A stretch of DNA of 64,000 bases. Source: Paraburkholderia aromaticivorans. GTDB taxonomy: Bacteria > Pseudomonadota > Gammaproteobacteria > Burkholderiales > Burkholderiaceae. The stretch lies in NCBI RefSeq assembly GCF_002278075.1, contig NZ_CP022990.1:620001-684000 (forward strand), written 5' to 3'. Positions within the stretch are counted from its first letter, which is position 1, and the number at the start of each line of letters is the position of its first letter. Below the pieces are notes generated by a model. It had not been told where the DNA came from. It did not search any database and saw only the letters and a list, made by a program, of their open reading frames with translations. The translations under genes were made by a program, and so were the position numbers. This document shows, piece after piece, positions 5,415-49,293 of the stretch.

Positions 5415-5442
5415 GCGCATGAGAGGGGACGCTCTCATGCGC
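5415..5442 (+). terminator. hairpin after the PRC-barrel gene
   Basis: A perfect 11-bp inverted repeat, GCGCATGAGAG (5415-5425) and CTCTCATGCGC (5432-5442), has a 6-nt loop and is followed by TTTC. It lies between the PRC-barrel stop and the convergent PaoC-like gene. The U-tract is short, so termination is likely but not certain. Confidence 0.55.
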
Positions 5443-5518
5443 TTTCATCATAAGGCGCGACAGCTGGGCCGACGCGCAGGCCCAGGCCGGACGACGCAAA
5501 CTGCTGAACGAATGCGCG

Positions 5519-9314: not shown

Positions 9315-9489
9315 GGGCATTCTCCTTCTTCTGGCGACAGGTCGCTACGCAATACAGCGGGGATGCGCAAGCGACGTGCCACTGTGGCACGTCGCCAAGC
9401 GCTCGCGCCGCAACGCTGTGCACGCGAGGCCATCGTCGTGCAGCCGGCGCGCCCATGTTCCGGCTTGCCGGCCGATATATTCAACAAAC

Positions 9490-14241: not shown

Positions 14242-14439
14242 GTGGAGGTCCTGAAAGCAGGTTGATGCAACGTCGACACAGCCGCGAAGCAAGCTGCATT
14301 CCCGGCGCACTTTGCCCGCGCCGCCGACGCCGGTACAACAGCGGCAACCAGTATGGCCGCATACTTGCTTAAGTGACAAGGCAAGCGCGTTGACACGGCC
14401 TGCATTCCCGCAGTCCCGCAACGCGCGCGGTGAGATCCC

Positions 14440-15342
14440 ATGCAAACCATCATCGACGATCACGCGTTGTTCGTGGCGAAACATCCCGGCGCGTTCCTGC
14501 TGCAAACCTTGAAGGCTTTCCGCGCGAACCAGGGCTTGCTGCTCGCGGGCGCGGTCGCGTATTACGCGTTGCTGTCGATCGTGCCGCTGATGATCCTGAT
14601 CGTGATCGTGCTGTCGCGCGTCGTGCCGCAACATGTGTTGCTGGCGGCGCTCGCGCATCTGTTGCAATGGCTGGTGCCGGGCCAGTCGAATGCGCTGGTG
14701 CGCGAGCTGGCCAATTTTCTCGCGCATCGCGCGGTGATCGGCTGGGTCCTGCTGCTCACCATGATCTTCTTCAGCTCGCTCGCCTTCACCGTGCTGGAGA
14801 ACGCGATGTCGCTGATCTTCGTTCACCGCGTGGTGGTGCGTCGGCGGCACTTCCTGTTGTCGGCCATGCTGCCGTATTGCTACATTCTCTTTCTCGGCGC
14901 CGGCTTGCTGATCGTCACCTTCGTGTCGAGCGGTCTCGAGGCGATCGGCGCCGAGGGCATCGAGCTGTTCGGCCTGCATGTTTCGCTGCAAGGACTCTCA
15001 CGTGTCGTGCTGTATCTGCTCGGCCTCGCGGGCGAAATTTTCGTGCTCACTTCGATCTATATGGTGATGCCGGTCGGGCGCCCTTCGCTCAAACATGCGC
15101 TGTTCGGCGGGGTAGTCGCCGCCGTGCTGTGGGAAATCACCCGGCACGTGCTGGTCTGGTATTTCGCGACCCTTTCGCAAGTCAGCGTGGTGTACGGGTC
15201 GCTGACCATGGCGATCGTGATCCTGTTCAGTCTGGAATGGCTCGCCACCCTGCTGCTATTCGGCGCTCAGGTGATTTCGCAATACGAACGATTCGGCATC
15301 GAGCCACTCGAGGCGCCGCAGCCGAAGATCGAGACCGGTTGA
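14440..15342 (+). CDS. YihY/virulence factor BrkB family membrane protein (300 aa)
   Basis: Polytopic inner-membrane protein with about six transmembrane helices. Family blocks are GAVAYYALLSIVPLMILIVI near residue 37, FFSSLAFTVLENAM, and the C-terminal VVYGSLTMAIVILFSLEWLA. The family was once called tRNA-processing RNase BN by mistake. Its real function is unknown; BrkB is linked to serum resistance in Bordetella. Start ATG 14440. The C-terminus is short and soluble. Confidence 0.9.
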   Translation: MQTIIDDHALFVAKHPGAFLLQTLKAFRANQGLLLAGAVAYYALLSIVPLMILIVIVLSRVVPQHVLLAALAHLLQWLVPGQSNALVRELANFLAHRAVIGWVLLLTMIFFSSLAFTVLENAMSLIFVHRVVVRRRHFLLSAMLPYCYILFLGAGLLIVTFVSSGLEAIGAEGIELFGLHVSLQGLSRVVLYLLGLAGEIFVLTSIYMVMPVGRPSLKHALFGGVVAAVLWEITRHVLVWYFATLSQVSVVYGSLTMAIVILFSLEWLATLLLFGAQVISQYERFGIEPLEAPQPKIETG

Positions 15343-15640
15343 TGCAACCCGGAACGGAAATCCAGCCGCGTTCCGACTGTCAGCCAACCTTCGCCGCGCC
15401 GAGGGTTCATGCGGATTGCATCGCACATGGCGGCCGCTCACGGATCACCCCCGTTCGGAACCAAACCCCGGTCGCCGCGTCAGACGCACAACCTCTCGCT
15501 CCGCGTCACCCGCGGCCCCCGTGCAGAGACACAGGCACACGGCCTCGCGGCAAGACTGCGGTAACATTCTGCTGAATACCGGCTCAAGCGCGCGCCTCGC
15601 TCAATCGCCGCTTCCATCCGGCAGGCTTCAGGAACAGACC

Positions 15641-16444
15641 ATGAGCATCACCCAGCGCAACAACCTACAGATTTCCGGCAGCGGCAAACGGACCATGGTG
15701 CTCGCGCACGGCTTCGGTTGCGATCAGACCATGTGGCGCTACCTCGCGCCGTCGTTTCATGGCGACTACCGGACCGTGCTGTTCGACCATGTCGGCAGCG
15801 GCTCGTCGGACCTGGCCGCTTACGACGTCGACAAATACAACTCGCTCCAGGGTTACGCCATCGATCTGATCGAGATCATCCGCGAAGTCGCCGAGGGCCC
15901 GGTCGTGTTCGTCGGCCACTCCGTGAGCGCGATGATCGGCCTGATCGCGAGCCTCGATGCACCGGAACTCTTCCGCGCGCATATCATGGTCGGCCCGTCG
16001 CCGTGTTATGTGAATGACGGCGACTACATAGGCGGCTTCTCTCGCGAAGATGTCGAAGACCTGCTGCGCACGCTGGAGAGCAACTACCTCGGCTGGTCGA
16101 GCACGATGGCGCCGGCCATCATGGGTGCGCCGGAGCAGCCGGAACTCGGCGCCGAGCTGACCAACAGCTTTTGCCGCACGGATCCCGACATCGCACGGCA
16201 ATTCGCGCGCGTCACGTTTCTTTCCGATCATCGCGAGATCCTGCCACGCACCGTCACGCCCACGCTGATCCTGCAATGTAGCGACGACATCATCGCGCCG
16301 CGCGCGGTCGGCGAATACATGCACCGCATGATGCCCGGCAGCACCTTGCATCTCATCGAAAACGTCGGCCACTGTCCGCACCTGAGTTCGCCCGGCGCGA
16401 GCGCGGCGGCCATGAACGAATTTCTCGGGCCGATGCGCCTGTAA
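15641..16444 (+). CDS. RsbQ-like alpha/beta hydrolase (267 aa)
   Basis: Small alpha/beta hydrolase of the RsbQ/D14/KAI2 family. The family N-terminus is seen (NNLQISGSGKRTMVLAHGFG). The catalytic triad reads Ser94 (GHSVS), Asp215 or Asp216 (QCSDD) and His244 (GHCPH), with spacing close to Bacillus RsbQ. The start at 15641 has AGGAA seven bases before it. In Bacillus RsbQ produces or delivers a hydrophobic signal sensed by the PAS domain of RsbP. Here the gene ends four bases before a PAS hybrid histidine kinase, so the same logic probably feeds a phosphorelay. Its own substrate is unknown. Confidence 0.9.
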   Translation: MSITQRNNLQISGSGKRTMVLAHGFGCDQTMWRYLAPSFHGDYRTVLFDHVGSGSSDLAAYDVDKYNSLQGYAIDLIEIIREVAEGPVVFVGHSVSAMIGLIASLDAPELFRAHIMVGPSPCYVNDGDYIGGFSREDVEDLLRTLESNYLGWSSTMAPAIMGAPEQPELGAELTNSFCRTDPDIARQFARVTFLSDHREILPRTVTPTLILQCSDDIIAPRAVGEYMHRMMPGSTLHLIENVGHCPHLSSPGASAAAMNEFLGPMRL

Positions 16445-16448
16445 CGCA

Positions 16449-18779
16449 ATGCAAAGCACGCACTACCCGCTGCCCTCCGCCGATACGTTGTTCGAGCACG
16501 CCGCCTGCGGCCTGCTCGTCACGGATGTGAACGGCCGCATTCTGCGCGTGAACGCGACGTTCTGCGGCTGGCTCGGCTATGAAGCAACGGAGCTTGCCGG
16601 AGCGAGGCAAATCCAGGATCTGCTGAGCGCCGGCGGCAAGGTGTTCTATCAAACGCACTGGGCGCCGCTGCTGCAAATGCAGGGTTCGGTCGCTGAGGTC
16701 AAGCTGAACGTGATGCATCGCGACGGCCACATGCTGCCGATGCTGCTCAACGCGGTGCGCCGCCGTCATGGCGAGCTGACCTACCTCGAATTGGCGGTGC
16801 TGGTCGTCGCCGATCGCCATAAGTACGAGCAGGAGTTGCTGCTCGCGCGCCGCAATGCCGAAGCGTCCGTCGCCGCGCATCAGCTCGCGCAAAAAGAGTT
16901 GCAGGAAAGCCGCGATGTACTGAGTCTCGCCATGCGCGGCGCGCGCATGGGCGCGTGGTCGCATGAGCCGAAGTCCGGCAAGTTCTGGTGGAGCCGCGAA
17001 CTGGAAGCGCTCGCGGGTTACGCCGAAGGACGCTTTGCCAACACGCCCGGCGGCTTTTTCGAACTGATTCATCCGGGCGACCTGATCGCGCTGAACGAGG
17101 CCGTGGATCATGCGGTGGAAACCGGCGACGATTACGTCGCCGAGTTCCGCTTTCTGCATGCGAGCGGCGACTGGTGCTGGATGGAAGGCCGCGGCCGCGC
17201 CGCCTACGACCGCCACGGCGAGCCGCTGATGATCTACGGCCTCGGCATCGACATTACCGAGCGCAAGGAAGCACAGACCGTGCTGCTGCGCCAGGCCGCG
17301 ATCTTCGAGCACCTGAGCGACGCGATCGTGATCACCGATCTGCGCGGCAATATCACCGACTTCAACGTGGGCGGCGAACGCATGCTCGGTTATCGCATGC
17401 GCGAGATTCTCGGCAAGCCCGTCGCGATTTTCCTCGCGCCGGAAGATGCGCTGAAGATCCGCCGGGAAGCGCTGGCGGCGCTGGCCGCCGACGGCACGTG
17501 GCGCGGCGAGTTGCCTTTCGTGCGGCGCGACGGTTCGCGCGGCGTCTGCGAGACCGTCGTCAAACCGCTCGCGAACGCGCGTGGCGACATCTACGGCGCG
17601 GTCAGCATCAATCGCGACATTACCGAGCGCCGGCGTGCCGAACAGCAACTCACGCGGCTCAATCTCGAACTCTCCAAGGCCGACCGCCGCAAGGATGAAT
17701 TCCTCGCCACGCTCGCACATGAGCTGCGCAATCCGCTCGCGCCCATGCGCAACGTGCTGGAGATCTTGCGCCTGAAGGAGTTCGCCGATCCGCAACTGAA
17801 CTGGTCGCGCGACGTGTTCGACCGGCAACTGCAACACATGACGCACCTGGTCGACGATCTGCTCGAAGTCTCGCGCATCACCCAGGGCAAGCTCGAGTTG
17901 CGCAAGCAACGGCTCGAACTGGCGCGCTCGATGCAATCGGCCATGGAAGCGGCGCGGCCGACCGTGCAGGCCTCGTCGCATCATCTGAGCGTCACGCTGC
18001 CGCGCGAGCCGCTCTATCTGATCGCCGACCCCACGCGCCTGTCGCAGATGATCCTGAATCTGCTGAACAATGCGGCCAAGTACACGCCGCCGGGCGGCAC
18101 CATCTCGCTCGCGGCCGAGCGCGAAGGCGACGAAGCGGTGATCGTCGTGCGCGATTCCGGTATCGGCATTCCGCACGAGCATCTGGACAGCGTGTTCGAA
18201 ATGTTCTCGCAACTCGCGCCGGCGCTGGACCGCTCGCAGGGCGGCCTCGGCATCGGTCTCGCGCTGGTGCGCGGCCTCGCGGAACTGCATGGCGGCACGG
18301 TCGCGGCCTTCAGCGAAGGCCCCGGCAAAGGCAGCGAATTCGTGATCCGGCTGCCGGTGACGACCCTCGCCACGCAGCCTTCCGACAGCGCGCCGCCGGA
18401 AGCGCCGAACGCGGCCGGCCTGCGCGTGCTGGTCGTCGACGACAACGCCGACGCCGCCGAGAGTCTCGCGATGGTGCTCGAACTCGAGGGCCACGAAGTG
18501 CGCACGGCCGGTGACGGCATTGCCGGTCTCGAACTGATCGACGCGTTTGCGCCGCAGGCGGTGATTCTCGATATCGGCCTGCCGCGTCTGAACGGCTACG
18601 AAGTCGCGCGGCGGATTCGCCGCGATCATCACGACGCCGGCATTCTGCTGATCGCCGTCACCGGCTGGGGTCAGCAGCAGGACAAGCAAACCGCCGTGGA
18701 AGCCGGCTTCGACCACCACTTCACGAAACCGGTCGATCCGCGGGAACTGCAACGGGTGTTGAGCCGGCAGCGGGTTTGA
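16449..18779 (+). CDS. PAS-domain hybrid sensor histidine kinase/response regulator (776 aa)
   Basis: Order of domains: PAS 1 (about 9-115, with FYQTHWAPLLQMQGSV, a block I associate with RsbP/RsbU-type PAS proteins), a coiled-coil linker (about 120-160), PAS 2 with PAC (about 165-280, ending DITERKEAQ), PAS 3 with PAC (about 285-400, ending RDITERRRAE), HisKA with phospho-His424 in LAHELRNP, HATPase (NAAKYTPPGG, GIGIGLALVRGL) and a receiver with Asp708 (VILDIGLPRLNGYE). No transmembrane helix is seen, so it is cytoplasmic. No output domain is present; a downstream phosphotransfer or regulator is needed. Cotranscribed with the RsbQ-like gene. Confidence 0.93.
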   Translation: MQSTHYPLPSADTLFEHAACGLLVTDVNGRILRVNATFCGWLGYEATELAGARQIQDLLSAGGKVFYQTHWAPLLQMQGSVAEVKLNVMHRDGHMLPMLLNAVRRRHGELTYLELAVLVVADRHKYEQELLLARRNAEASVAAHQLAQKELQESRDVLSLAMRGARMGAWSHEPKSGKFWWSRELEALAGYAEGRFANTPGGFFELIHPGDLIALNEAVDHAVETGDDYVAEFRFLHASGDWCWMEGRGRAAYDRHGEPLMIYGLGIDITERKEAQTVLLRQAAIFEHLSDAIVITDLRGNITDFNVGGERMLGYRMREILGKPVAIFLAPEDALKIRREALAALAADGTWRGELPFVRRDGSRGVCETVVKPLANARGDIYGAVSINRDITERRRAEQQLTRLNLELSKADRRKDEFLATLAHELRNPLAPMRNVLEILRLKEFADPQLNWSRDVFDRQLQHMTHLVDDLLEVSRITQGKLELRKQRLELARSMQSAMEAARPTVQASSHHLSVTLPREPLYLIADPTRLSQMILNLLNNAAKYTPPGGTISLAAEREGDEAVIVVRDSGIGIPHEHLDSVFEMFSQLAPALDRSQGGLGIGLALVRGLAELHGGTVAAFSEGPGKGSEFVIRLPVTTLATQPSDSAPPEAPNAAGLRVLVVDDNADAAESLAMVLELEGHEVRTAGDGIAGLELIDAFAPQAVILDIGLPRLNGYEVARRIRRDHHDAGILLIAVTGWGQQQDKQTAVEAGFDHHFTKPVDPRELQRVLSRQRV

Positions 18780-38259: not shown

Positions 38260-38277
38260 GGTGGGAGCGGGTTGGAA

Positions 38278-38299
38278 GGGGTCACGGTACGGTGACCCC
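38278..38299. terminator. hairpin after the symporter gene
   Basis: Perfect 8-bp inverted repeat GGGGTCAC (38278-38285) and GTGACCCC (38292-38299) with a 6-nt loop, 18 bases after the symporter stop. There is no T-run, so it may be a Rho-independent stop of poor quality or simply part of the SymE remnant that begins here. Confidence 0.35.
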
Positions 38300-38512
38300 C
38301 GAATACGATGACCCCGCCAGAGCACTCGAACGCGCGCAGAACGGACCATTGAACTCAAGGCCCAGAGCGACCAGTTGCGCAACGTGTGGTTCGCACAAGT
38401 CACTGGGCGCTGAAACAGGGGGATTGGCACAACTGGCGAAGCAGGCTTTACACGAGGGCCGCGCGTAAAAATCAACATTGAACACGGACGATTGACCATT
38501 ACCGCCGAGTAG
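38282..38512 (+). pseudogene. SymE-like remnant A
   Basis: Two C-terminal SymE-type pieces are recognisable on the plus strand, in different frames. The first (38289-38412) encodes VTPEYDDPARALER and then, after a 2-base shift, RTIELKAQSDQLRNVW. The second (38430-38512) encodes GEAGFTRGPRVKINIEHGRL and ends TITAE. AGF-x2-G-x2-V-x-I plus LTI is the signature end of SymE family toxins. Copies B (40057) and C (40918) repeat the first piece. No start codon or N-terminus remains. Confidence 0.6.
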
Positions 38513-38514
38513 CC

Positions 38515-38550
38515 GTAGCAAGGGCCGCTTGCGCGGCCTTCGCTACTTTT
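38515..38550 (+). terminator. intrinsic terminator after SymE remnant A
   Basis: GTAGC (38515-38519) pairs with GCTAC (38542-38546) and encloses an imperfect GGCCGC/GCGGCC stem; TTTT follows at 38547-38550. Related GGGCC hairpins follow remnants B and C. Confidence 0.65.
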
Positions 38551-38949
38551 AATACCGGTTGCCAATATAGGCTGAGATAGAGGTCACGTCTAAAAAATCA
38601 GATTTAATACCGATGGAGAGTCCATCACCATTCAATGCAAGATCTATCAATTCACCATCGCGATTCAAATCAATGTCTGCAACGAATGACGTATTATTCC
38701 ACCCTGAAGAGAGGAATATCTTACGCCAGAGCATGAAAGTTGAATTTGAACTGTATTGAATTTATTTTCAACCCAATTTTTTGGAGGGGATAGCGGATAA
38801 TCTCGCAAATCAATTCGAAAGGTAACGGTTGGCCCGTCACGATGAAAGGTGACATCGTGAACATTTACTTTATCAAGAGATGGAAAATCTTCTCCGTAAA
38901 TGAATGTTACTTTTCTTTTGTCTACCAAAAAATCCGTCCAATGCGACAT
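38549..38949 (-). pseudogene. Imm50-like immunity gene, frameshifted (archived cassette 4)
   Basis: Starts at ATG 38949 behind an AGGGATG site. The first frame reads MSHWTDFLVDKRKVTFIYGE and continues through DYPLSPPKNWVENKFNTVQI, then loses sense after LSCSGV near 38735. The second frame takes over (IFLSSGWNNTSFVADIDL) and ends AYIGNRY at 38549. Joined, the two halves make one protein of Imm50-like layout (N-terminal W, PxxPPxxW, C-terminal ISAY). One base change in length explains the break, so the immunity gene is dead or a sequencing error is present. Confidence 0.65.
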
Positions 38950-38961
38950 TGCTCATCCCTT

Positions 38962-39390
38962 TTAAAATGGATAGTGCTCAAGCGTACCAGGTACTGTGCC
39001 TACTGTGCCATTGCGGGTATCTTCAATGGGTCTCACATTGATATGTGGCCCTTGGTTCCCCGGCGTGCCTGGTGGACCGTAACTATGGCCAGGACAATGA
39101 TCCTGAATCACAACTTGAGAACCATCTTCGCGAGTGAATGTGTATTCACGTGTTTTCATCGGTTGATGACTTTCGCTCAAAATATTTTTACCATTTCTCT
39201 CAGTAAGATTTGCGAGATTAACCCGATCAGGTCGTTGCCTCATTGGCATTCTTGCATCTCTCTTTGCTGCTATAAATGCAGCATTTCGTGACTGAAAGCT
39301 CGGAGGAGATTGTCCTTCCGATGGCGTACACGACAGCCCCCACGGATCGATCCACGATATCGGATTGGGCGCATACGCATATAACCTACC
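38962..39390 (-). pseudogene. orphan Rhs toxin tip, HNH/EndoVII-like, without start (archived cassette 4)
   Basis: The frame is intact for 142 codons but has no proper start. It begins directly after the stop of the upstream immunity gene with the Rhs border LYAYAPNPISWIDPWGLSC, then a variable linker and the toxin domain REYTFTREDGSQVVIQDHCP, GHSYGPPGTPGNQGPHINVR, ending GTLEHYPF. Conserved His, Asn and the final EHYPF resemble HNH/EndoVII-fold polymorphic nucleases. It is silent unless recombined onto the rhs gene. Confidence 0.7.
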
Positions 39391-39681
39391 CTAGCTGGCT
39401 CCCCATTGAGAATTTATTTTAAAAATCTCACCCAAAAGCATCTGATCATCAAATTCACCCTCATCCCTTAATTCCGGATCAGAGCAGTAATTGTCTACAG
39501 CACAAAACACCGCATCAAAGTATCGTTGATCAGTTGCTGGAGCATCCTGCAACTGGCCATTGTCCCTACAGGCCCTCCACGTCGCCATATATGCCCTTTC
39601 GAAAGCGACTGCCGAAATTCCTCTTGAGGCAAAGCGCTCTACCAAGATAGTCAAATCTGCTTTTGTGTATCTAGAAGACAT
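39391..39681 (-). CDS. colicin-D-immunity-like protein (96 aa, archived cassette 3)
   Basis: Intact frame from ATG 39681 to TAG 39391. All-helical sequence TKADLTILVERFASRGISAV, FERAYMATWRACRD, then CSDPELRDEGEFDDQMLLGE, the layout of colicin D/E5-type immunity proteins that occupy the toxin active site with acidic residues. Its start lies inside the last codons of the colicin-D-like toxin remnant, as expected for a cognate pair. It may still protect against incoming toxin. Confidence 0.75.
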   Translation of the reverse strand: MSSRYTKADLTILVERFASRGISAVAFERAYMATWRACRDNGQLQDAPATDQRYFDAVFCAVDNYCSDPELRDEGEFDDQMLLGEIFKINSQWGAS

Positions 39682-40032
39682 TTCCTAGGCTCGTAAGGTC
39701 AGATACCTGTCCAGGTGACAGCTTCCACCCAGATATGAAATTCCCAGACTGATCAGTCATGACATTTAATCCAGTTTCAGGATTAAAGTAATGCATCACA
39801 TCGTCGGCCCAACGATATTTTCTTGAATCGCCTGGGTTGAAGGTAAATCAACATGATCCTTCATCGCTTTCTCAAAAGCTCCAATGTTAGAGCCATTTTT
39901 ATTTCCTGTAACGCTGAAATCCACAGCATGCTTGAACTTCTTGTCGAGTTGCTTCCTCGTGAAATTCACACCTTCCGAACACGCAAGTCCCAACGGATCG
40001 ATCCAGCCTATCGGATTAGGCGCATACGCATA
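39671..40032 (-). pseudogene. orphan Rhs toxin tip, colicin-D-like tRNase, frameshifted (archived cassette 3)
   Basis: Begins with the border YAYAPNPIGWIDPLGLAC (about 39985-40032). The toxin starts KQLDKKFKHAVDFSVTGNKN and runs to LPSTQAIQ, then a one-base shift near 39820 moves the frame to KYRWADDVMHYFNPETGLNV and SGNFISGWKLSP before the stop at 39671. Both halves match the colicin D C-terminal RNase domain, which cleaves tRNA-Arg anticodon loops in the prototype. No start codon precedes it. Confidence 0.75.
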
Positions 40033-40056
40033 GGTGGTTAGGCGCGGAGTCGTTGT

Positions 40057-40230
40057 TCAAGGCCGGCCAGCGCTTCCATGTCTCCATTGACTACATCCGG
40101 CAACGCCTCACGGTGCCCCCGAATACGATGATGCCAGAGCGCGCGAGCGCGCAGAACGGTCCATTGAACTCAAGGCCCAGAGTGACCAGTTGCGCAGCGT
40201 ATGGCGCGCGCAAATCACTGGCCGTTGAAA
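40057..40230 (+). pseudogene. SymE-like remnant B
   Basis: Encodes FKAGQRFHVSIDYIRQRLTV, then one base is missing relative to copy C and the frame fails. The following nucleotides (ATTGAACTCAAGGCCCAGAG and on) are nearly identical to copies A and C. Only the C-terminal half of a SymE-type protein plus tail is left, abutting the Rhs border of cassette 3. Confidence 0.6.
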
Positions 40231-40232
40231 CG

Positions 40233-40254
40233 AAGGGCCGCGTCAGTGGCCCTT
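40233..40254 (+). terminator. hairpin after SymE remnant B
   Basis: AAGGGCCGC (40233-40241), loop GTCA, GTGGCCCTT (40246-40254): a 9-bp stem with one G-T pair, followed by TACTATTTC. Confidence 0.6.
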
Positions 40255-40261
40255 TACTATT

Positions 40262-40558
40262 TCACTCACTTTCTACATAGCTTTTGAGATGTACCCAGAA
40301 GTCACAATCAAAGATACTCTCCCGGCTTAAACCAAGCAACTCCCCAATTATCAGATACTCCTTCATATCAATATCTTGCGGATTGAAGTTAATTTTCATT
40401 AATTCGATAAACAAACCCTCGTACCTCATTTCATATTCGTCATGCTAAATAAAATGGCGCACAGACTCCGATGTCTCCTTGTCCAGTACGTTTTCATACT
40501 TTTCAAGAAGCACTGCAAGCCTATCTTTAACAAAAAAACAAGCTCTTCTTGCATCCAT
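40262..40558 (-). pseudogene. immunity gene with internal amber codon (archived cassette 2)
   Basis: From ATG 40558 the frame reads MDARRACFFVKDRLAVLLEK and SESVRHFI, meets TAG at 40445-40447, then continues HDEYEMRYEGLFIELMKINF to a natural stop at 40262. Without the TAG it would be a 98-residue acidic helical protein of a type I recall next to contact-dependent toxins. The downstream Met could allow a shorter product. Partner of the EndoU tip. Confidence 0.65.
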
Positions 40559-40915
40559 TCCTCGCGGTGGGTTGGGCGCCACATTAATCGGATAGGCAGT
40601 CGAAATCTGACCGGCATAAGTCGAATGTGTTGAGGGAAAAAAATCAACCCGTATCTCAACGCCGTCTCGAACGCCAATCGCATAAGGTGAACTCCACTTT
40701 CCAACACCTCAAGTAGACTTGGGATCCGTAGCAACATCTGACACGTGCCGCAAAATATCAGCATCACTCCAATGGGCAGGAAACTCCGTTTTTCCTGGCT
40801 TTCCTGCACCATATTTATGCCGATTAAGAATATGGTCTTCTATGCCCTGTCAGATCACAAGACAACCCTAACGGATCAGCCCACCCGAATGTATTTGGCG
40901 CATACCGATATGTGG
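40559..40915 (-). pseudogene. orphan Rhs toxin tip, EndoU nuclease, inactivated (archived cassette 2)
   Basis: Border YRYAPNTFGWADPLGLSC (about 40858-40915) is followed, after a one-base shift, by HILNRHKYGAGKPGKTEFPA and HWSDADILRHVSDVATDPKS, an in-frame TGA at 40709-40711 where the family has Trp, and then VEIRVDFFPS and ISTAYPINV. This is the bacterial EndoU RNase domain with its paired histidines. Two lesions plus the lack of a start make it non-functional. Its frame runs into the immunity gene without a stop. Confidence 0.75.
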
Positions 40916-40917
40916 CT

Positions 40918-41152
40918 CGCAACAACGGGATTCTTTAAAGCCGGCCAACGTGTCAATGTCTCGGTCGATTACATCCGGCAAAGCCTCACGGTGGCACCCG
41001 AATACGATGACGCCGCCAAAGCGCGTGAACGCGAGGAACGGACCATTGAACTCAAGGCCCAGAGCGACCCGTTGCGCAACGTTTGGCGTGCACAGGAAGC
41101 CGAGCGCCGACAATGCAGAAACCGCTCCGCCCCGCTCAACTCGAGTTGCTGA
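40918..41152 (+). pseudogene. SymE-like remnant C
   Basis: The best preserved of three copies: TTGFFKAGQRVNVSVDYIRQ, SLTVAPEYDDAAKAREREER, TIELKAQSDPLRNVWRAQEA, stop at 41152. The first block fits the C-terminal beta-hairpin of SymE family toxins (GFxxGxxVxVxV...LTV). The N-terminal half is missing: the frame upstream is antisense Rhs border. Same orientation and same neighbours as copies A and B. Confidence 0.6.
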
Positions 41153-41170
41153 TCCTGCAGCAACCAATAA

Positions 41171-41196
41171 CGAAGGGCTACGCAAGTGGCCCTTCG
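41171..41196 (+). terminator. hairpin after SymE remnant C
   Basis: CGAAGGGCTAC (41171-41181), tetraloop GCAA, GTGGCCCTTCG (41186-41196): an 11-bp stem with one wobble pair and a GNRA-type loop. There is no strong T-run. Confidence 0.55.
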
Positions 41197-41234
41197 AGAT
41201 GCCATTCGGGACTTACGGGCTCCAGGTGTACCGT

Positions 41235-41495
41235 CTATTTATAAGAATCCGGAATATTCTGAAACTGACGATCCCAGTCCCAATCTGCTGGCCTTTCTTT
41301 ATTTTCAAACCACTTCTTACCATTCAAAATCCATTGATTACGTTTCCTTCTCGCACTTGCCGGCGTGCAATCTTCGTAGCCAAATTCAGTGCCGCAACAC
41401 GGACATATTTCCCATGTCGGCGTACTCCCATCCTCACCCCAAGGAGGCGAGGACAATCCATAACCACACACTCGACAATAGCAATCACTGTGCAT
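41235..41495 (-). CDS. zinc-ribbon-like immunity protein (86 aa, archived cassette 1)
   Basis: Starts at ATG 41495 (or ten codons earlier at 41525). It contains CYCRVCGYG and CPCCGTEFGY, two knuckles that should bind zinc, then RNQWILNGKKWFENKERPAD and a short tail. Proteins of this kind occur beside CDI and Rhs toxins as immunity factors. Frame intact. It follows the toxin tip at 41527. Confidence 0.7.
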   Translation of the reverse strand: MHSDCYCRVCGYGLSSPPWGEDGSTPTWEICPCCGTEFGYEDCTPASARRKRNQWILNGKKWFENKERPADWDWDRQFQNIPDSYK

Positions 41496-41526
41496 TGTAG
41501 TAATCCAAATTACTCGGGAAGCCATG

Positions 41527-41842
41527 CTACGCGGGATCGGGCCTGAACATCGACTTTGGCGTGCCATTTGACGTCGTGACCGCAAATGTGTTGCTTCCCG
41601 GATCATAAAAAACAACCTCTCCGTTTGGTCTTATTTTCGTGAGCGTTCCTGATGGTGGTCCGCTAACAAAACTCTTCGTTCCTTCAACATATTGTTTGGC
41701 ATTTTGAAATTCCGGAAACTCCGCTCCGTGTTTTTTCCAATGCCCATAAGCATTTTCCGCTGACGACTTCGACGATGTCGAAGTCCAGCAACTCACCCCC
41801 CACGGATCAATCCACGAGATCGGATTAGGCGCATACGCATAA
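41527..41842 (-). pseudogene. orphan Rhs toxin tip, BECR-like, without start (archived cassette 1)
   Basis: Border LYAYAPNPISWIDPWGVSC (about 41786-41842) leads in frame into SSAENAYGHWKKHGAEFPEF, QNAKQYVEGTKSFV, GTLTKIRPNGEVVFYDP and a C-terminal GTPKSMFRPDPA. The layout (helix, then a beta sheet with TxxxxNGxVxxYDPxxNTF) suggests a Barnase/EndoU/ColE5/RelE-type RNase. The assignment is by pattern only. A GTG inside the border could start translation, otherwise it is silent. Reading frame intact. Confidence 0.65.
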
Positions 41843-41867
41843 AGGGCCGCGTCTGCGGCTCCATCTT

Positions 41868-42086
41868 TTAATCCGCCTGCTCCAATAAAAATTCCATCCC
41901 GATAAGCACCCCATTTTTATCAAAATCAAGATATATTTCAGGCCCCTTGTATTCTTTTATTATCGAGTGGAGACTTATCTGTTTTGCAACCACACCAGGA
42001 CTTCCTTTCCCAGGGTGGTCTGGCAGGGACAAATAGGCAACATCTCCATCTTCATTCACCACCATATCAATCTTTCGGTCAGCCAT
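41868..42086 (-). CDS. immunity protein of the active Rhs effector, DUF2283-like (72 aa)
   Basis: Starts two bases after the rhs stop, the typical place for the cognate immunity gene. The sequence MADRKIDMVVNEDGDVAYLS, later GPEIYLDFDKNGVLIGMEFL, resembles DUF2283, a small beta-rich fold used as antitoxin or immunity protein. AT-richer than the rhs core, as usual for exchanged tips. Confidence 0.75.
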   Translation of the reverse strand: MADRKIDMVVNEDGDVAYLSLPDHPGKGSPGVVAKQISLHSIIKEYKGPEIYLDFDKNGVLIGMEFLLEQAD

Positions 42087-42088
42087 TT

Positions 42089-42375
42089 CTACTCCAACAG
42101 ATTAATCAAGACCGTTTTTATTTTTGCAGTTCCGTTCTTTGCCACTTGGTACACCGCCATACCGTTATTTCCGGTGGGCACCAGAACTCGATCTGCATGA
42201 GCAGTATCCACAATTGTCCCAACAGGGTAACCGTCCTTTTCTATTTGCTTTGATAACGCCTTCAGAGCATCTGATGCTGTGTTCTTATCCGGATAAACAC
42301 CTCGCTCAACAGCCCTCTCCACCGCGTGCGGCATGTTTGAATTTACTACCTTCTTAGGCTTGGACAATAAATCAC
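42089..42375 (-). other. variable toxin tip of the active Rhs protein
   Basis: The last 94 codons of rhs, after the second DPxG motif. GC drops sharply from the core. The tip reads KVVNSNMPHAVERAVERGVY, SDALKALSKQIEKDGYPVGT, TAHADRVLVPTGNNGMAVYQ and ends KIKTVLINLLE. The HAVERAVERGV helix followed by a small beta sheet suggests a RelE/BECR-like nuclease, but I do not recognise the family. Confidence 0.7.
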
Positions 42376-45300
42376 AAGACAGCCCCCAAGGATCAATCCA
42401 GCTTATCGGGTTCGGCGCATACGCATACAGATTCACCCCACCCGCCAACCCAATCGGATCAGGCGTAGTAAACCTCCCAATATCCGGATCATAATACCGC
42501 AGCGTGTTGTAATGCAGCCCCGTTTCCCGGTCCAGATACTGCCCCTGGTACCGCAAATTCTGGCGCACCGCGTAGCTCTCCGGCTCGCTCTCGCGCACGG
42601 TGTTGCCCCACAGCTGGTACATCGCCTGCCACACGATCCGTCCGTCCGCGCTGGTCAGTTCCTCCGGTGCGCCATTGATATCCGTGTGATAGTAGTAGGT
42701 GCTACGCCCGAGTCCGTTGCGGCCATCGATCCGGGCCACCGGCTCATAACTGCCTTCGCCGTTGTACAGGTACAGGCTATCGGCGCCGTCCGCCCGCACC
42801 TCCTGCACCATCCGCATGCCGTCCCACACAAAGCGGGTCCGCTCGATAGGCTGTCCATCCCCGTCGATCGCAAACTTTGCAACACGCCGCCCCACCGCGT
42901 CGTACGCGTAACCGTAGCGCCGAACCGGGCTACCGGTCTGCTCGATACTCACTTCCACCAGCCTGTGTTCCGCATCGTACCGATAGCGTTGCAGTCCCGT
43001 CGCCGTCAGCCGGCTCGCCGTGCGCCCGTGGGCGTCGTATTCGTAGCGGCGATTCCGAAAACGCAGCACCCGGTTGAAGCGGACCACGTTGCCTTCCCGC
43101 TCAACCGGGGCCGGTTCGCCTTTCACGCGTGCACGCTCCCGAACTTCAACCAGATTCGCCGCCGCGTCGTACTGCAACGTGTCCCAGTAAGCCTCGTTGC
43201 GGCACCCGCTGATGCGCCCGCTTTCGTCGTACCGATACGCGGTTTGCTGCTGCAGGCTATGCCGCTTGCTCACCAGACGGTCCAGCGCATCGTAGTGATA
43301 GTCCCGGTCGATCACCCTGTCCGGCACCACGCCATTCATGCCGCGATAACTCTGCCGGCGCGCCAGCCGCCCGTTCACGTCGTACAGGCTGCGCGTGTCC
43401 AGCTTGCCCTGACTGCGCAGCACTTCACGATGCAAACGGTCGCGCTGGAAGTCGCTGACCGTTTCGCCGTCCACATTGATCTGATGCAGGTGGCCGCTGC
43501 CGTAATACAGATGATTGATCGTGCGTCCATCGGGCAGAGTCGTTGCGATCCGGTTGCCCAGCACATCGTATTCGTGACGCAGTTTCCCCTGCGACGTCGC
43601 TTCCTCCAGCAGTCGCCCCAGACGGTCGTAACGGAATGCGATCACCTCCACGTCCCGCTTACGCGGCGCGTCGTGCCGCTTGCGTGAGATCGTCAGCAGG
43701 TTGCCGCTGGCATCGTAGTCGTGGAAAGTGATCGCATCGGGCGTGTACCGGCCAATCAGGCGGCCGAGCGCGTCACGACCGAACGTATGCTCGATCTGTG
43801 CGTCGCCGCCGGCGGCGTATCGCACCGCCGCCACCTGATCCAGCGCGTCGTAATCCGTCTCCTGACGGCGGCCATCCAGATCCGTCTGCCGCGTCAGGCG
43901 GTTTTTCGCGTCATAGGCAAAGCCGTAGCGTTCGCCGTTCTCGTTGATGAGCGCCAGCAACCGTCCATAGCTGTCGTACTCGAACCCCACGCGATGCCCC
44001 GCGCCGTCGATGCGCGCCTGCACCAGGCCACGCCGATCACGCTGATAACGGGTAGTGCGTCCGCTGGCATCGGTATGCGTCAGCAGTTGTCCGGCCGCGT
44101 CTACCGTGAAGCGCTCTTCCCTGCCGTCGGGATGCACCACGGTGACGAGTCGCCCCAATGCATCGCGCCGATAGCGGATGCGGTCGCCTTCGGCATTGGT
44201 CACGCACTCGAGGGCGCCGCGTGCATCGTAATAGAACGCCGTTACCGAACCTGAGCAATCGGTATGGCTGCTCAACTGGCCATCTTCATTCCAGCGCAGA
44301 TGGCGCTCGCCGCCGCGCGCGTCGGTGATCTTCATGACCAGCCCGCGCGCGTCGCGGTGATAGAGCGTGCGTTGCATCAACGGGTCTATCGTGACGATGC
44401 GGTTACCGCGCTCGTCGTAGACCTGCCGCCACGTGCTGCCGCCCGTGTCCGTTTCAAGCGTGGGAAGCGCCCACACCGGGTGCCATTGCGTCTGCTCGAC
44501 CCGACCGAGCGGGTCAGTGACCGCGCTCACACGGCCCGCTTCGTCGTAATCCCAACGCCATACGCCGCCCTTCGCATCCGTCACGGCCAGCAATTGCCGC
44601 TCGCGACTCCACTCGAAGCGCGACACATGCCCGAGTTCGTCTTCGAAGCAGGTGATCTGATACAGCTCGTCCCATTGCCGGAAGGTGCTGCGCCCGAGGC
44701 TGTCACGGACCCGCAGGGTGCGCTCCTGGATCTGATAGTCCAACCAGTAGTGCTCGCCGGTATCGGTCCAGTGTTCGACGACGCGCCATTCTTCGCCATC
44801 CGGGCCGTCGAAGCGCCCCCAGCCATAGTGGCATTCCATGCCCGCCGGCAGCCGGTGCATCACCATGCGACGGCCGCCATCGTATGCAAACTGACGCAGG
44901 ATCGCATCGTCGCGGTTGCGCACCTCGGCCAGATTGCCGGCAGCGTCATAGCGATAGCGCACGAGCACATCACGCTGTTGCAGGTCTTCGCCGTAGCGCC
45001 GCGCGAGGCAACTCACGCGGCGTGGATGGACCGGCTCCTCATAGTGAAGCCGCACACATTGATGACCCGCACTGTCGGCGATCGCCTCGAGCCGGCCGGC
45101 ATCGTCGTAGTGCAGCCGCAACGCATTGCGATTGCGATCGCTCAACCGCAACAGGCGCTGACGTTGAGCATTGTGCGGGTCGGGCTCGAACACCCGGTAA
45201 AGGCCTTCGTCGCTTTCCACCAGCCAGTGCCCCGCAGCGCTGCGGCGAACGCCCAGGCCTTCACCCGGGCTGCGGAATCCGTGGCCCGGCCGCACCGCCT

Positions 45301-46591
45301 GCAGATCCACGCGCCGTCCTGTTTCGTCGATATAGGTCCAGCAGTCGGCGTCCTCCGCGCCCGGGGTCATCTCCATCGCCACTTCGAACGGCACGCTCCA
45401 GCCGGTGCCGAACATGCCGTCGTGACGCTCGTCGCGGCTGTTGTAGAGTCGCCGCCAGTCCAGCGGAAAGGGGCCAGGCAGACTGAAGTCGAGGTCCTCC
45501 TCGCCGGCGAGATATTTGGCGCCCGTTGCGGCATTCACCGGCTGCAATACGGCGTTGCCCGCCCGGTGGTACAGCCCGCGCAGTGCCTCGCCGGCTTTCT
45601 GCGTCAAGACGCTTACACCGGTGCCGAACAGGAAACAGCCAAACTTCGAGGTCGCGCTACCCTTGCCCATGAATGCAAGGACGACCGCAACCGTCAGCGC
45701 AACGGGCGACTTGCCGCTGCGAATGTCTCGCACGACGGCAAGCGGTCCGCCGATCCTGACATCGGGTGAAACATCCACGCCGCCAGCCGGCTCATCGACC
45801 ACCCTGGCTTCGCAGGTGGTACGGGCGCCGCTGCGGGCGGCGGGCTGACCGTTGATGGTGACGTGCTTCACGCCCTCGGCGAGGTATTCCGATGCGCCAG
45901 TGATCGCACTGACCGCCTTGAACCCGGCATCCAGCGCACCGACGCCAGATACGACATTGAAAACCGCCGTGCCCACCGAAGTATGGGCAACATCCTCGGC
46001 CATCGCCGTGATGGAACTGGGGTGTTTCTCGCAATGCACCTTGTCGTCCGGACAGGGATTCGCAGGCTCCGGCGCGGCCACGGCCGGGCGCCACATCTGC
46101 GAAATGAACTCTTGTCCCCACTGCAATGCCTCGCCCGCGATATCGACGATCGACTGCTGCCTGGGCGGCGCCTCCGCGGCGGCCTGCGCCTGCGCCTCGA
46201 TCTCCTCCTGCGTCATCAGAATGCCGGCCGCGCGCGCCGCACGTTTGCCGTTGACATACGTGTCAGCCGATCCGCTCGAAATATGCCCTTGCACGGTCGG
46301 GGGAAATATTGCGTTACCGACATCCGAGCAGAACGAAGATATGCCTTCGCTCATGCCGGACGCCGACATGCCGATACCGACGCCGACACCGACGGCCAGC
46401 CCCACCGCGAGGCACGCACTGGCGCCGAACGTGAATGGCGCGGCGGCAATGGCGGCCCCGACCGCGAGATCCACCGCGATCATGATGGCCGCATTGATTG
46501 CCACGTCGAGCACGCCGCCCGCGATATCGGCCATCAGCGACGTGTGCAGCAGCGCGTCGCCCTCGCGGGCGGCCCAGAACGCCTCTCCCAT
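42089..46591 (-). CDS. T6SS Rhs effector with N-terminal PAAR-like/TM region (1500 aa)
   Basis: Polymorphic toxin delivered by the type VI system. Residues 1-100 contain hydrophobic helices (MADIAGGVLDVAINAAIMIA, SACLAVGLAVGVGVGIGMSA), the segments bound by Eag chaperones. A PAAR-like part follows (CPDDKVHCEKHPSSITAMAE, KHVTINGQPAARSG). Residues about 400-1370 are YD/RHS repeats forming the cocoon. The core ends RYYDPDIGRFTTPDPIGLAG and SWIDPWGL, the paired DPxGL motifs used for self-cleavage that releases the tip. The start at 46591 is set by homology of the N-terminus; the frame is open further upstream into the chaperone gene. Confidence 0.93.
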   Translation of the reverse strand: MGEAFWAAREGDALLHTSLMADIAGGVLDVAINAAIMIAVDLAVGAAIAAAPFTFGASACLAVGLAVGVGVGIGMSASGMSEGISSFCSDVGNAIFPPTVQGHISSGSADTYVNGKRAARAAGILMTQEEIEAQAQAAAEAPPRQQSIVDIAGEALQWGQEFISQMWRPAVAAPEPANPCPDDKVHCEKHPSSITAMAEDVAHTSVGTAVFNVVSGVGALDAGFKAVSAITGASEYLAEGVKHVTINGQPAARSGARTTCEARVVDEPAGGVDVSPDVRIGGPLAVVRDIRSGKSPVALTVAVVLAFMGKGSATSKFGCFLFGTGVSVLTQKAGEALRGLYHRAGNAVLQPVNAATGAKYLAGEEDLDFSLPGPFPLDWRRLYNSRDERHDGMFGTGWSVPFEVAMEMTPGAEDADCWTYIDETGRRVDLQAVRPGHGFRSPGEGLGVRRSAAGHWLVESDEGLYRVFEPDPHNAQRQRLLRLSDRNRNALRLHYDDAGRLEAIADSAGHQCVRLHYEEPVHPRRVSCLARRYGEDLQQRDVLVRYRYDAAGNLAEVRNRDDAILRQFAYDGGRRMVMHRLPAGMECHYGWGRFDGPDGEEWRVVEHWTDTGEHYWLDYQIQERTLRVRDSLGRSTFRQWDELYQITCFEDELGHVSRFEWSRERQLLAVTDAKGGVWRWDYDEAGRVSAVTDPLGRVEQTQWHPVWALPTLETDTGGSTWRQVYDERGNRIVTIDPLMQRTLYHRDARGLVMKITDARGGERHLRWNEDGQLSSHTDCSGSVTAFYYDARGALECVTNAEGDRIRYRRDALGRLVTVVHPDGREERFTVDAAGQLLTHTDASGRTTRYQRDRRGLVQARIDGAGHRVGFEYDSYGRLLALINENGERYGFAYDAKNRLTRQTDLDGRRQETDYDALDQVAAVRYAAGGDAQIEHTFGRDALGRLIGRYTPDAITFHDYDASGNLLTISRKRHDAPRKRDVEVIAFRYDRLGRLLEEATSQGKLRHEYDVLGNRIATTLPDGRTINHLYYGSGHLHQINVDGETVSDFQRDRLHREVLRSQGKLDTRSLYDVNGRLARRQSYRGMNGVVPDRVIDRDYHYDALDRLVSKRHSLQQQTAYRYDESGRISGCRNEAYWDTLQYDAAANLVEVRERARVKGEPAPVEREGNVVRFNRVLRFRNRRYEYDAHGRTASRLTATGLQRYRYDAEHRLVEVSIEQTGSPVRRYGYAYDAVGRRVAKFAIDGDGQPIERTRFVWDGMRMVQEVRADGADSLYLYNGEGSYEPVARIDGRNGLGRSTYYYHTDINGAPEELTSADGRIVWQAMYQLWGNTVRESEPESYAVRQNLRYQGQYLDRETGLHYNTLRYYDPDIGRFTTPDPIGLAGGVNLYAYAPNPISWIDPWGLSCDLLSKPKKVVNSNMPHAVERAVERGVYPDKNTASDALKALSKQIEKDGYPVGTIVDTAHADRVLVPTGNNGMAVYQVAKNGTAKIKTVLINLLE

Positions 46592-46602
46592 GACGTCCCC
46601 CG

Positions 46603-47052
46603 TCAGTCGCGCGTGGCACTGCGAAAATCGATACTCGCCTTGATGGCGCTCCAGTGTGCCGCGTCGATATCGGTCAGCGCGGTGGCTCGCGTGTAGCTGA
46701 GCGCCATCATCGTGCGCGAGCCGGGCAGCAACCACGCCAGCTGATACTGATAGACCGGCTCCTTGCCGCGCATGAAGCGGTTCTGCATCTCGAAGCCGGC
46801 CACATCCTGCCGCAGGCCGATCGTGACAGGCTGCTTCGCGCTGTAATGCAGTTCGGCCACCTGATCGGCCAGCCGGCGCATCTGCGCGTCGAGACTGCTT
46901 TCGAGCGTTTCGCCGTCGTTCAACGCGCCGCGGCTGATCACGAGGTTCGCGTTCAGTTGCGGCAGCCGGATCACATTGAAACTGCTATCGACATAGCTAG
47001 CGTCGGGCAGCGTGAACGCCGCCTCATGGGTGTAATAACGGGCTTGTTGCAT
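46603..47052 (-). CDS. EagR-type T6SS chaperone, DUF1795 (149 aa)
   Basis: DUF1795/DcrB-fold protein beginning MQQARYYTHEAAFTLPDASY, with DRSVNVxxLP-like SSFNVIRLPQLNANLVISRG and a C-terminal WSAIKASIDF. Eag proteins shield the transmembrane segments of Rhs/PAAR effectors and load them on VgrG. Position between vgrG and rhs, 11 bases before the rhs start, fits exactly. Confidence 0.9.
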   Translation of the reverse strand: MQQARYYTHEAAFTLPDASYVDSSFNVIRLPQLNANLVISRGALNDGETLESSLDAQMRRLADQVAELHYSAKQPVTIGLRQDVAGFEMQNRFMRGKEPVYQYQLAWLLPGSRTMMALSYTRATALTDIDAAHWSAIKASIDFRSATRD

Positions 47053-47088: not shown

Positions 47089-49119
47089 CTACTTTTCTGG
47101 AAAGACGGCGTCGACGTGTGACTGGATGGATGCTTTCTCACCAGAACCGCGAGGCGCCACGCCCGCCTCCTTACCGCCCATATTCAGGTCGAGGTTGCCT
47201 GCCTGCGCATTGATCTTTCCGCTCTGCCTCGCGGTCAGGTTGAAGTTGTTACAGGTGACATTGATCTCCCCGTTGCTCTTGAGCTCGACGATGCTGTCGC
47301 CACAGGAAAGCGTGATGCTGTCGCCGGCCGCACAGAGCAGATTGTTCAGGACCTCGACCACACGGTCCTTGCCGACGAGTGTCCCGTCGTCGGCCTTGAC
47401 GCAGCGCTGGCGCGTGTCGCCGATCGTCACAAGCTCGTTTCGCGCAACCGTTCTGATGCGGTCGTTGCCGACCGTATGCAACGCGTCGTTCTCGACCTCG
47501 GTACGCATGTCCCGTTCGGCCTGCAGCCACAGTTCCTCCGCCCCCTCCTTATCCTCGAAGCGGATCGCGTTGGCTGTACCGTAGTGGCCTTTCATGGAGC
47601 GGGAGAGCATGCCGCTTTGCGTCGCGTTACCCGGCAACTCCCATGGCGGCATGGAGGCTGCATTGAACACGCGCCCCGTCACGATCGGCCGGTCGGGATC
47701 ACCGTTCTCGAAATCGACGATCACCTCCTGGCCCACGCGCGGTATGTTCACGCCCCCGAAGTTGCTGCCGGCCCACGGATACGACACGCGCACCCAGCAC
47801 GATGAATTCTGGTCGTTCACGGGTGAATGGTCCCAGTGGAACTTCAGCTTCACCCTGCCGTATCGGTCGGTCCAGATTTCCTGTCCCGGCGGTCCCGTCA
47901 CGATCGCCGTTTGCGGTCCGGTGGTGCGCGGCCTCGCCACCGTGCGCGGCGCGCGGAACATCGTGGTGGCCGGCTGCAACTCGAACCACGTGTTAAAGCG
48001 GTATTGGCCCGCGCCCGTTTGCTCGCCGGTTTCTTCCGCCATCAGCTTCGCGCCGATCACGAGGTATTCCCGGTTTGCCGCCTCCTGCGGATAGCCCGCG
48101 AGCGTAAAGGTCGTGCCGCACACCACGTTGCGCAGATGACCCTGGCCCGTGGCGCGCTCACCCCGCGCGCGGATTTCCTCCATGCGCACGCGTGCGAACT
48201 GCGCGCCATCGCTCGCGTCGCTATAGTCGCCCGGCCATTCGTAGACGCTCAGCCGGTTATGCGCTGTCTGCCGCGGCAGCGCGTTTTTCACGGCGAGATC
48301 CGCGCCCGGTCGTGTGAAGTCGAAGTCGTCAGTCGTCCAGACGCCCGACTGAATGCAATCGGTCGTATGGAATGCCTCGATGTACTCGCGATCGATCTTG
48401 TGTCCCGGCGGGTAGTACCACAGCGTCCGATACGCGAGACTCTCCACGGGTGTGTGCGCACCGAGATTGTCGACCAGCACCATCCGGTGTATCTCGCCGG
48501 AATGTTCGAAAAACCAGTAGATGCCGTGCTCAGCCATCAGGCGCTGAATGAAGGCGAAGTCGGACTCGCCGTACTGAACCTGATAGACCAGGTTCGAATA
48601 CCTGCCGCCCAGACGCTTGACATACGAGTAGAGGTAATGGCCCTTAAGCACCTCGTCGATAATCTCGACGACCGTTTTGTTCTGGAAGATCCGGTAATCG
48701 GTGCGCCGCTCGGCAAGCACGATCCACGGCTGCAACTTCAAACGGTAGAGATACTGGCGGTTCAACTGGCTCACCAGACTCGCCGCGGTCACAATGCCGC
48801 TGATCTCACGAATCCCGGCGCCGAAATTCGCCGCACCGCCGGCGCCTGCCATGCCCGGCACGAATGTCCCCATGCCGTCGAGCTGGATGGTGACCGTTAG
48901 CTCCTTGCCGATCATCTCTTTCAAGTCGAAGTTGGCGGCCGTGCTGTCCGGCAGCAGCGGATCGACGGGCGTGACGAGGCTCAGCTCGTATTCGTAGATG
49001 ATCGACAGGGTTTCTTCGCCTGCGATGGCACGTAACTGCAATGCCGGCTCGCCGTGGGGCAACCTCGGCAGCGCCGCGCCGCTGACCGTCAGGGTACGTG
49101 GCGTCACGAAGTTCAGCAT
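47089..49119 (-). CDS. vgrG: type VI secretion tip protein VgrG (676 aa)
   Basis: Spike protein with gp27-like domains (LVYQVQYGESDFAFIQRLMA, EHGIYWFFEH) and a gp5-like OB-fold and needle (DRYGRVKLKFHWD, SCWVRVSYPWAGSNFGGVNI, PRVGQEVIVDFENGDPDRPI), then the DUF2345-like repeat region. No extra C-terminal effector domain; it ends SHVDAVFPEK. Start at ATG 49119 behind AAGGTG. It carries the EagR-Rhs cargo encoded just downstream. Confidence 0.95.
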   Translation of the reverse strand: MLNFVTPRTLTVSGAALPRLPHGEPALQLRAIAGEETLSIIYEYELSLVTPVDPLLPDSTAANFDLKEMIGKELTVTIQLDGMGTFVPGMAGAGGAANFGAGIREISGIVTAASLVSQLNRQYLYRLKLQPWIVLAERRTDYRIFQNKTVVEIIDEVLKGHYLYSYVKRLGGRYSNLVYQVQYGESDFAFIQRLMAEHGIYWFFEHSGEIHRMVLVDNLGAHTPVESLAYRTLWYYPPGHKIDREYIEAFHTTDCIQSGVWTTDDFDFTRPGADLAVKNALPRQTAHNRLSVYEWPGDYSDASDGAQFARVRMEEIRARGERATGQGHLRNVVCGTTFTLAGYPQEAANREYLVIGAKLMAEETGEQTGAGQYRFNTWFELQPATTMFRAPRTVARPRTTGPQTAIVTGPPGQEIWTDRYGRVKLKFHWDHSPVNDQNSSCWVRVSYPWAGSNFGGVNIPRVGQEVIVDFENGDPDRPIVTGRVFNAASMPPWELPGNATQSGMLSRSMKGHYGTANAIRFEDKEGAEELWLQAERDMRTEVENDALHTVGNDRIRTVARNELVTIGDTRQRCVKADDGTLVGKDRVVEVLNNLLCAAGDSITLSCGDSIVELKSNGEINVTCNNFNLTARQSGKINAQAGNLDLNMGGKEAGVAPRGSGEKASIQSHVDAVFPEK

Positions 49120-49293
49120 GGGTAGCACCTTTGCCGTGCGACCGGCTCCCCGCAGGTGTCGCCGGGCGCGTCGCGCTGACCGCATGTCACCCGACGCCCT
49201 ATCTTCAATCCTCTCATGTTCGTAGTCATCCTAAATATTTTGATTAAAACTAAGACACCTCACTGTCCGATCCGTACGCTGCGCTTGTTCGGT

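Follow-up and report, generated by a model that had tools for sequence, protein, structure and literature searches.

A 64,000-nucleotide stretch of the 8.9 Mb genome of Paraburkholderia aromaticivorans (contig NZ_CP022990.1, positions 620,001 to 684,000; hereafter the window) carries an active rhs gene followed by an archive of four cassettes, each made up of a displaced toxin-type tip and a small partner gene. We consider it likely, though unproven, that these cassettes descend from tip-swapping integrative elements and now stand as a row of decayed copies, the element family itself being firmly established by its members in related genomes. The gene order of the element, its exact edges, its tandem copies and an rhs site of Escherichia coli found in two states are the sequence observations that carry this reading. 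From them we infer a route of gain, not loss, in which a tyrosine recombinase would join a circle of the element to a weapon gene, at a short site within the 3' end of its conserved part. At the front of the element would stand what remains of that gene on the 3' side, followed by a new tip and its partner gene. Insertion would thus restore an open frame that ends in the new tip, and the old tip would be moved downstream together with its own copy of the site. Repeated insertion would build tandem rows, and loss of the rear genes would leave small tip-partner cassettes such as those of the window.

A common left edge of the archived borders

A search of 10.5 kb revealed six families of direct repeats, only one of which has five copies: a 57-nt border (39325-39381, 39976-40032, 40854-40910, 41785-41841 and 42371-42427) whose copies are 67-84% identical to the reference copy. 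One copy lies in the active rhs gene and four are archived. A sequence-only reading of the window had described five Rhs borders, each heading a different toxin-type domain and a small partner gene, and this arrangement was confirmed by the repeat search, the reading frames and Pfam. All four archived borders begin at the first codon of YxYAPN, the sequence before them is unrelated to the rhs core, and the same convergent gene end precedes two of the four. This edge coincides with the insertion point in relatives.

To place these borders among others, we scanned the window, 27 further loci of the genus and 76 genome_contigs loci, 192 borders in all, with a motif that missed the borders of locus L032, which read APDP. 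The genus loci were picked from the best matches to the window and are therefore not a random sample. Left out of the count were the repeats of Paraburkholderia xenovorans LB400 (L059), three frame-shifted core copies (L038 3668, L048 16400, L031 4050), the non-genus borders of L089, L100, L110 and L115, and borders carrying at least 35 core codons. Among the orphan borders counted in the 28 genus loci, 16/21 break at most two codons from the YxYAPN point (P ~4e-12, with an even spread over 35 codons and independence assumed). Two of these loci, L035 and L048, have their upstream sequence in common (98% over 400 bp) and diverge from the join onwards. A pseudo-site of the same bases in native SymE-like genes was considered as a source of the window's exact joins and rejected; L034 and L035 differ there.

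That the tips behind the active gene were displaced from it was supported by comparison with genome G010 (L033), putatively Paraburkholderia azotifigens. There the HNH tip and partner of the window's module 5 (81% DNA identity) end a 990-codon open rhs frame (4290-7259) and the window's active tip (79%) sits on a 171-codon fragment (9196-9708), so the tip that is active in one genome is archived in the other. The upstream frames of L033 are separate, so the G010 rhs may be split. Tip displacement, the established process named in the sequence-only reading, was thereby kept; the edge common to all archived borders, however, is better matched by site-specific insertion of an element than by random homologous exchange. 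The further proposal of a time-ordered record of tip replacement was not borne out: any archived border could be an insertion site, and decay is not graded by distance from rhs. The most decayed modules had been placed in the middle of the row, and the tips of the middle modules 3 and 4 are indeed broken.

The element in related genomes

In relatives the element measures 6.5-7.7 kb, has one edge at the point where the archived borders start, and often stands in tandem behind rhs or CdiA-type genes. Its order is tip and partner followed, in most copies, by a convergent SymE, a helix-turn-helix (HTH) regulator, a CHC2/Toprim primase and a tyrosine recombinase. In genome G109 (L032) a 6,491-bp unit occurs twice in tandem with two differences, and each unit runs from a border with an Ntox17 tip through a small gene, a convergent SymE, a convergent HTH gene, the CHC2/Toprim primase and the recombinase to a right end and the next border. 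The rhs gene is of the window's type, and the crossover or edge lies at the same place in it as the starts of the window's archived borders. A third, shorter unit holds a tip, partner, SymE and HTH gene with no primase or recombinase match, and the EndoU module behind it is 87% identical to that of the window.

The L032 recombinase matched Phage_integrase (PF00589, 8.3e-39), and the HxxR and Tyr motifs were present in the 30 sequences inspected out of 40. Genome G091 (L052) has a cassette with an end like that of L032, and inside it is a recombinase spread over two frames (72% and 81% identity). The window's own rhs locus was found in P. xenovorans LB400 (G142), of the same genus, where one border is preceded by a right end like the element's. 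When the sites of different targets were compared by eye, a common sequence was not seen.

One E. coli rhs locus in two states

Between yncE and yddH, E. coli Ec-U10 (L174) carries an rhs gene with a tip and the partner WP_023155668.1. The flanking DNA (11,995 bp at 99.5% and 10,203 bp at 99.2%) is shared by E. coli D6 (L173), where rhs has a different tip, paired with Imm8, at its end and the tip and partner of Ec-U10 stand 16,712 bp further downstream. On each side of the site 400/400 bases are identical between the two strains, and their rhs genes diverge after the 15 bases GACCCGATAGGGCTG. Four parts make up the extra 16,712 bp of D6, every one of them beginning at GACCCGATAGGG. First comes an 848-bp tip-Imm8 cassette, which has exact edges and lacks a recombinase; two full elements follow, and between them lies a cassette that contains ISEc1 and ~400 bp of core. 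D6 and Ec-U10 differ by exactly placed element DNA, and from the sequences either gain in D6 or loss in Ec-U10 could have produced the difference. The simple state also occurs in JNE151685 (L175), where rhs is annotated in two pieces; for a second E. coli tip (L172), present in 6/5426 genomes, the simple state was not seen among the matches listed. The layout of vgrG, a DcrB-related gene and rhs is present at the D6/Ec-U10 locus as well.

Distribution and target genes

Searched at E 1e-30, the L032 recombinase matched 141/141 genus genomes, because XerC and XerD match at this level. The recombinase clade proper (E <1e-60) comprised 26 copies in 10/141 genomes, with at most 13 candidates per genome scored. 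All 26 were fetched and sorted by context into three at rhs of the window's type, four at another rhs family, 18 at CdiA-type genes (a label given by sequence likeness only in G043 and L162-L164) and one further copy; 25/26 stand at the tip joints of rhs or CdiA-type genes. Pfam supported these contexts with RHS_repeat in L158, hemagglutinin repeats in L159 and L161, and Tox-REase-5 in L165. The remaining copy, L166 (G043 C1:2903000-2922900), is a lone element with a CdiA-type tip among unrelated neighbours (SbcC-like by eye) and may be a secondary-site insertion. Primase sequence accompanies 25 of the 26 copies (not L164; partial in L052 and L165).

Nine of the CdiA-type copies form one row in G043, behind a 3,075-codon frame whose own edge reads VDRFNRQLH; the edges behind it read CRVRFNRQ(L/I)H eight times and CRVKSNRQRH once. 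The entry point in the rhs of L158 and L160 is GLYYYRNRYY, the counterpart of the break in three orphans of the window's rhs type, 28-31 codons upstream. In L160 (G025) the recombinase of the second copy appears by eye to be interrupted by IstA/IstB-type frames resembling an insertion sequence, at about 14400-16800 in target orientation.

Across the order, the primase was found at E 1e-70 in 6/300 genomes. In PLSDB 22/72,556 records matched at E 1e-60, seven of them from Leptospira at 37-40% identity; five records, none from Leptospira, were opened. Primase, recombinase and HTH genes were present in the Enterobacter and Salmonella records, both with a hemagglutinin-type gene upstream, in that of Janthinobacterium, with an FG-GAP/RHS_repeat gene upstream, and in that of Lonsdalea; the Shigella record has recombinase, SymE and HTH genes and no annotated primase. 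The last two are small circular plasmid records built of the element (Lonsdalea populi, 11,289 bp, and Shigella flexneri, 8,758 bp; L168 and L167, NZ_CP072857.1 and NZ_CP055112.1), and the Shigella circle matches one period of the E. coli row. We did not use them as proof of circles, since tandem repeats may be collapsed into spurious circles during assembly. The enteric loci L168, L169 and L171 have, by annotation, an extra pair of a DinJ- or ParD-type antitoxin and a RelE/ParE-type toxin behind the recombinase.

Matches at E 1e-40 were found in 3/50,697 phage records, none covering more than 80% of the protein. In E. coli, 53/5426 genomes have a relative, in 186 places that are all chromosomal, and the two loci opened are both rhs. 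In a tree of 40 recombinase sequences the element clade stands apart from four at XerC/XerD level, its subclades follow target and host group, and the E. coli rhs recombinases cluster with other enteric ones and not with those of Paraburkholderia rhs. On balance we favour the view that a widespread beta- and gammaproteobacterial element family is among the main drivers by which polymorphic toxins exchange their tips. Its members would bring in a tip and immunity pair, recombine at a site encoded within one of the weapon gene's conserved motifs, restore the frame and archive the old tip, and the recombinase subclades would have specialised in different targets, namely two Rhs families, CdiA-type adhesins and an FG-GAP/Rhs protein.

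Origin of the window's archive

The archive holds three copies of a convergent plus-strand gene end, and a further short remnant behind cassette 5 has 74% identity to an element's SymE over 23 residues (Table 1). The family of the three longer remnants aligned to SymE by profile (93.8% probability, E 1.8e-7), a soft value because the sequences are few and alike. An unrelated neighbour gene was considered as the source of these repeats and rejected; they occupy the SymE place of intact elements and align to SymE by profile. SymE-type sequence was found in 12/28 genus loci and in 3/76 others (one of the three again LB400), and recombinase together with primase in 2/28 and 0/76. We call the window a putative decayed remnant because recombinase and primase are missing.

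Several results weigh against an origin of the archive from full elements. Pfam scans did not recognise the window's SymE-like family. In the window's whole genome there was no primase match at 1e-70 and recombinase matches reached XerC/XerD level only. The element's right end was not recognised in the window, where three of the four joins are unlike it and the fourth is loosely alike by eye. Among the relatives, SymE was undetected in L162, L165, L166 and two of the nine G043 units, and it is unannotated in 3/5 of the plasmid records opened. Five of the 21 orphan borders break further upstream (L034 2027, L052 8582, L054 3994 and 6004, L055 6088), ~400 bp of core precedes the second full element of D6, as homologous recombination would leave, and decay by random deletion would not leave the border side exact.

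The longer core pieces on these five borders and the stretch of core inside the D6 insertion favour plain homologous displacement, the established model, drawn for enterobacteria as PMC2935791 presents it, in which circles or linear DNA with core pieces enter the core via RecA and orphan borders are leftover homology. The 76 genome_contigs loci also speak for it, as they lack the recombinase and primase of the family and have no convincing exact-edge border except that of LB400. Nevertheless, we think this route rather unlikely for the archive. It predicts core pieces of varying length, whereas the four archived borders of the window share one start, as do most borders of the genus; L035 and L048, so alike upstream, yet differ from the join onwards; and the recombinase at the same joint is left unexplained.

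Small tip-partner cassettes might instead move alone, or in trans with a recombinase from elsewhere, so that the window would have been built from cassettes and not from decayed full elements. The 848-bp cassette of D6, with its exact edges beside full elements, is what such movement would look like, and the cassette lengths of 586-931 bp in the window and 889-994 bp in LB400 agree with it; it would account for exact borders without rear genes. We regard it as quite improbable, since a common right end was not found among the small cassettes and the SymE-like remnants of the window suggest that rear genes were formerly present. That the archive serves as a store of silent tips, fusible to the core by border-border recombination, fits the role swap with G010 and the orphan-tip fusion reported for Salmonella in the material cited from PMC4927057, but it is very doubtful with two of four archived tips (EndoU and colicin D) and one partner (Imm50) broken in frame, and it concerns use, not origin, and is compatible with insertion and decay of elements, which we retain as the best explanation.

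Features of the window

On the minus strand the order is vgrG (47089-49185), a small gene (46603-47052), rhs (42089-46735; 1548 aa) and then the archive, and this is the only full copy of a window-type rhs in the genome. In 400-base windows the G+C content of the archive is 39-55%, against ~60-68% in the rhs core. A Pfam search with the active tip, also made with an alignment of tips, gave no family, and a sequence search found no relative of solved structure. Its structure model (predicted local distance difference test, pLDDT, 92.9) gave zero matches at E <=1e-3 in a structure search; the best likeness, to RelE/YoeB-type toxins, had E 3.3e-3 and a template modelling (TM) score of ~0.57, and on this model the active tip may weakly resemble these toxins.

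Of the families named in the sequence-only reading, DUF2283, EndoU, Colicin_D and HNH with Imm50 were upheld by Pfam profiles; the module read as BECR-like gave Ntox47 below the cut-off, and the zinc ribbon of its partner is seen by eye only (Table 1). Taking the frames as they stand, unmended, both genes of module 2 are open, the EndoU and colicin-D tips are broken, the HNH tip is open and Imm50 continues in a second frame. EndoU_bacteria was matched by one of the two EndoU pieces scanned (1.3e-5). DNA relatives of the partner region of module 2 (41248-41552) are present in G044, G013 and G014.

Table 1. Features of the active rhs gene and of the archive behind it, in window positions
Feature	Positions	Strand	Remarks
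Active rhs core, conserved part	42428..46735	-	gene 42089-46735
Border of active rhs	42371..42427	-	site placed by homology with insertion points of relatives
Active tip	42089..42370	-	unassigned by Pfam; structure model weakly like the RelE/YoeB fold
Partner of active tip, DUF2283	41868..42086	-	Pfam 4.7e-7
Cassette 2 tip, Ntox47-like	41527..41841	-	border edge 41841; Pfam 0.0013, below curated cut-off
Cassette 2 partner	41235..41483	-	zinc-ribbon look by eye; no convincing Pfam family
SymE-like convergent gene end behind cassette 2	40931..41113	+	
Cassette 3 tip, EndoU, broken into pieces	40448..40910	-	border edge 40910
Cassette 3 partner candidate, 60 codons	40265..40444	-	no family
SymE-like convergent gene end behind cassette 3	40053..40231	+	
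Cassette 4 tip, colicin-D-like, frame broken	39674..40032	-	border edge 40032; Colicin_D 1.1e-5
Cassette 4 partner, frame open	39391..39681	-	Colicin_immun 1.1e-13
Cassette 5 tip, HNH/EndoVII, open	38962..39381	-	border edge 39381; Tox-HNH-EHHH 1.4e-23
Cassette 5 partner, over two frames	38552..38949	-	Imm50 1.5e-16
Two SymE-type remnants behind cassette 5	38289..38515	+	38289-38416, same kind as the other two; 38441-38509

Comparison with known systems

How tips are swapped and old tips retained has been an open question since the displacement model of 2009, and it becomes testable in a laboratory strain once recombinase, site and gene order of an element are defined. Such an element would explain why tips travel with immunity genes, and its fixed edges offer a way to find archived tips and their donors automatically. 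The 2009 model holds that Rhs C-termini are displaced by homologous recombination with proposed circular intermediates; in the part of the article drawn on here its authors were aware of no integrase associated with Rhs and raised the question of the circle's origin (BMC Genomics; PMC2935791). The rows of displaced tips with core pieces that it describes behind intact rhs genes are like the archive of the window, except that here the edge is fixed and relatives have a recombinase within the row. Displaced tip pairs also stand in rows in the orphan cdiA-CT/cdiI arrays, between whose pairs integrase and transposase genes were noted and site-specific recombination was suggested, though the portion of that 2016 paper used here describes no element, site or gene order (PMC4927057).

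In the immunity gene arrays of the type VI secretion system of Vibrio cholerae, effectors are likewise displaced by successive insertion; the arrays were likened to integrons, with the statement, in the section cited, that no integrase is known, and they differ from the window in losing effectors and keeping immunity genes (PMC5361080, 2017). The rAID of Bacteroidales, like the element of the relatives, has a tyrosine recombinase, which is located next to orphan immunity genes arranged in rows, but as far as the excerpted preprint goes these genes lack toxin tips and are not joined to a weapon gene (PMC12247911, 2025); the window, conversely, has tips and no such recombinase. Tip displacement in bee-gut bacteria (PMC8125069), XerC/D beside polyimmunity loci (PMC3482391) and tandem Mx-alpha units carrying different toxins (PMC5562445) are also on record in the extracts of those papers considered here.

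Displacement by homologous recombination was already known, and what is new, as far as the open-licence literature shows, is an integrative element that carries the tip; no such element was described in the open-licence literature searched, with subscription papers outside this coverage. Integrons, and integrases whose insertion re-creates the end of the target gene, also rely on site-specific tyrosine recombination, with the newest cassette placed first or the gene end restored. The element differs from both in giving the gene a different toxin domain as its restored end, in keeping the former one downstream and in carrying the recombinase itself.

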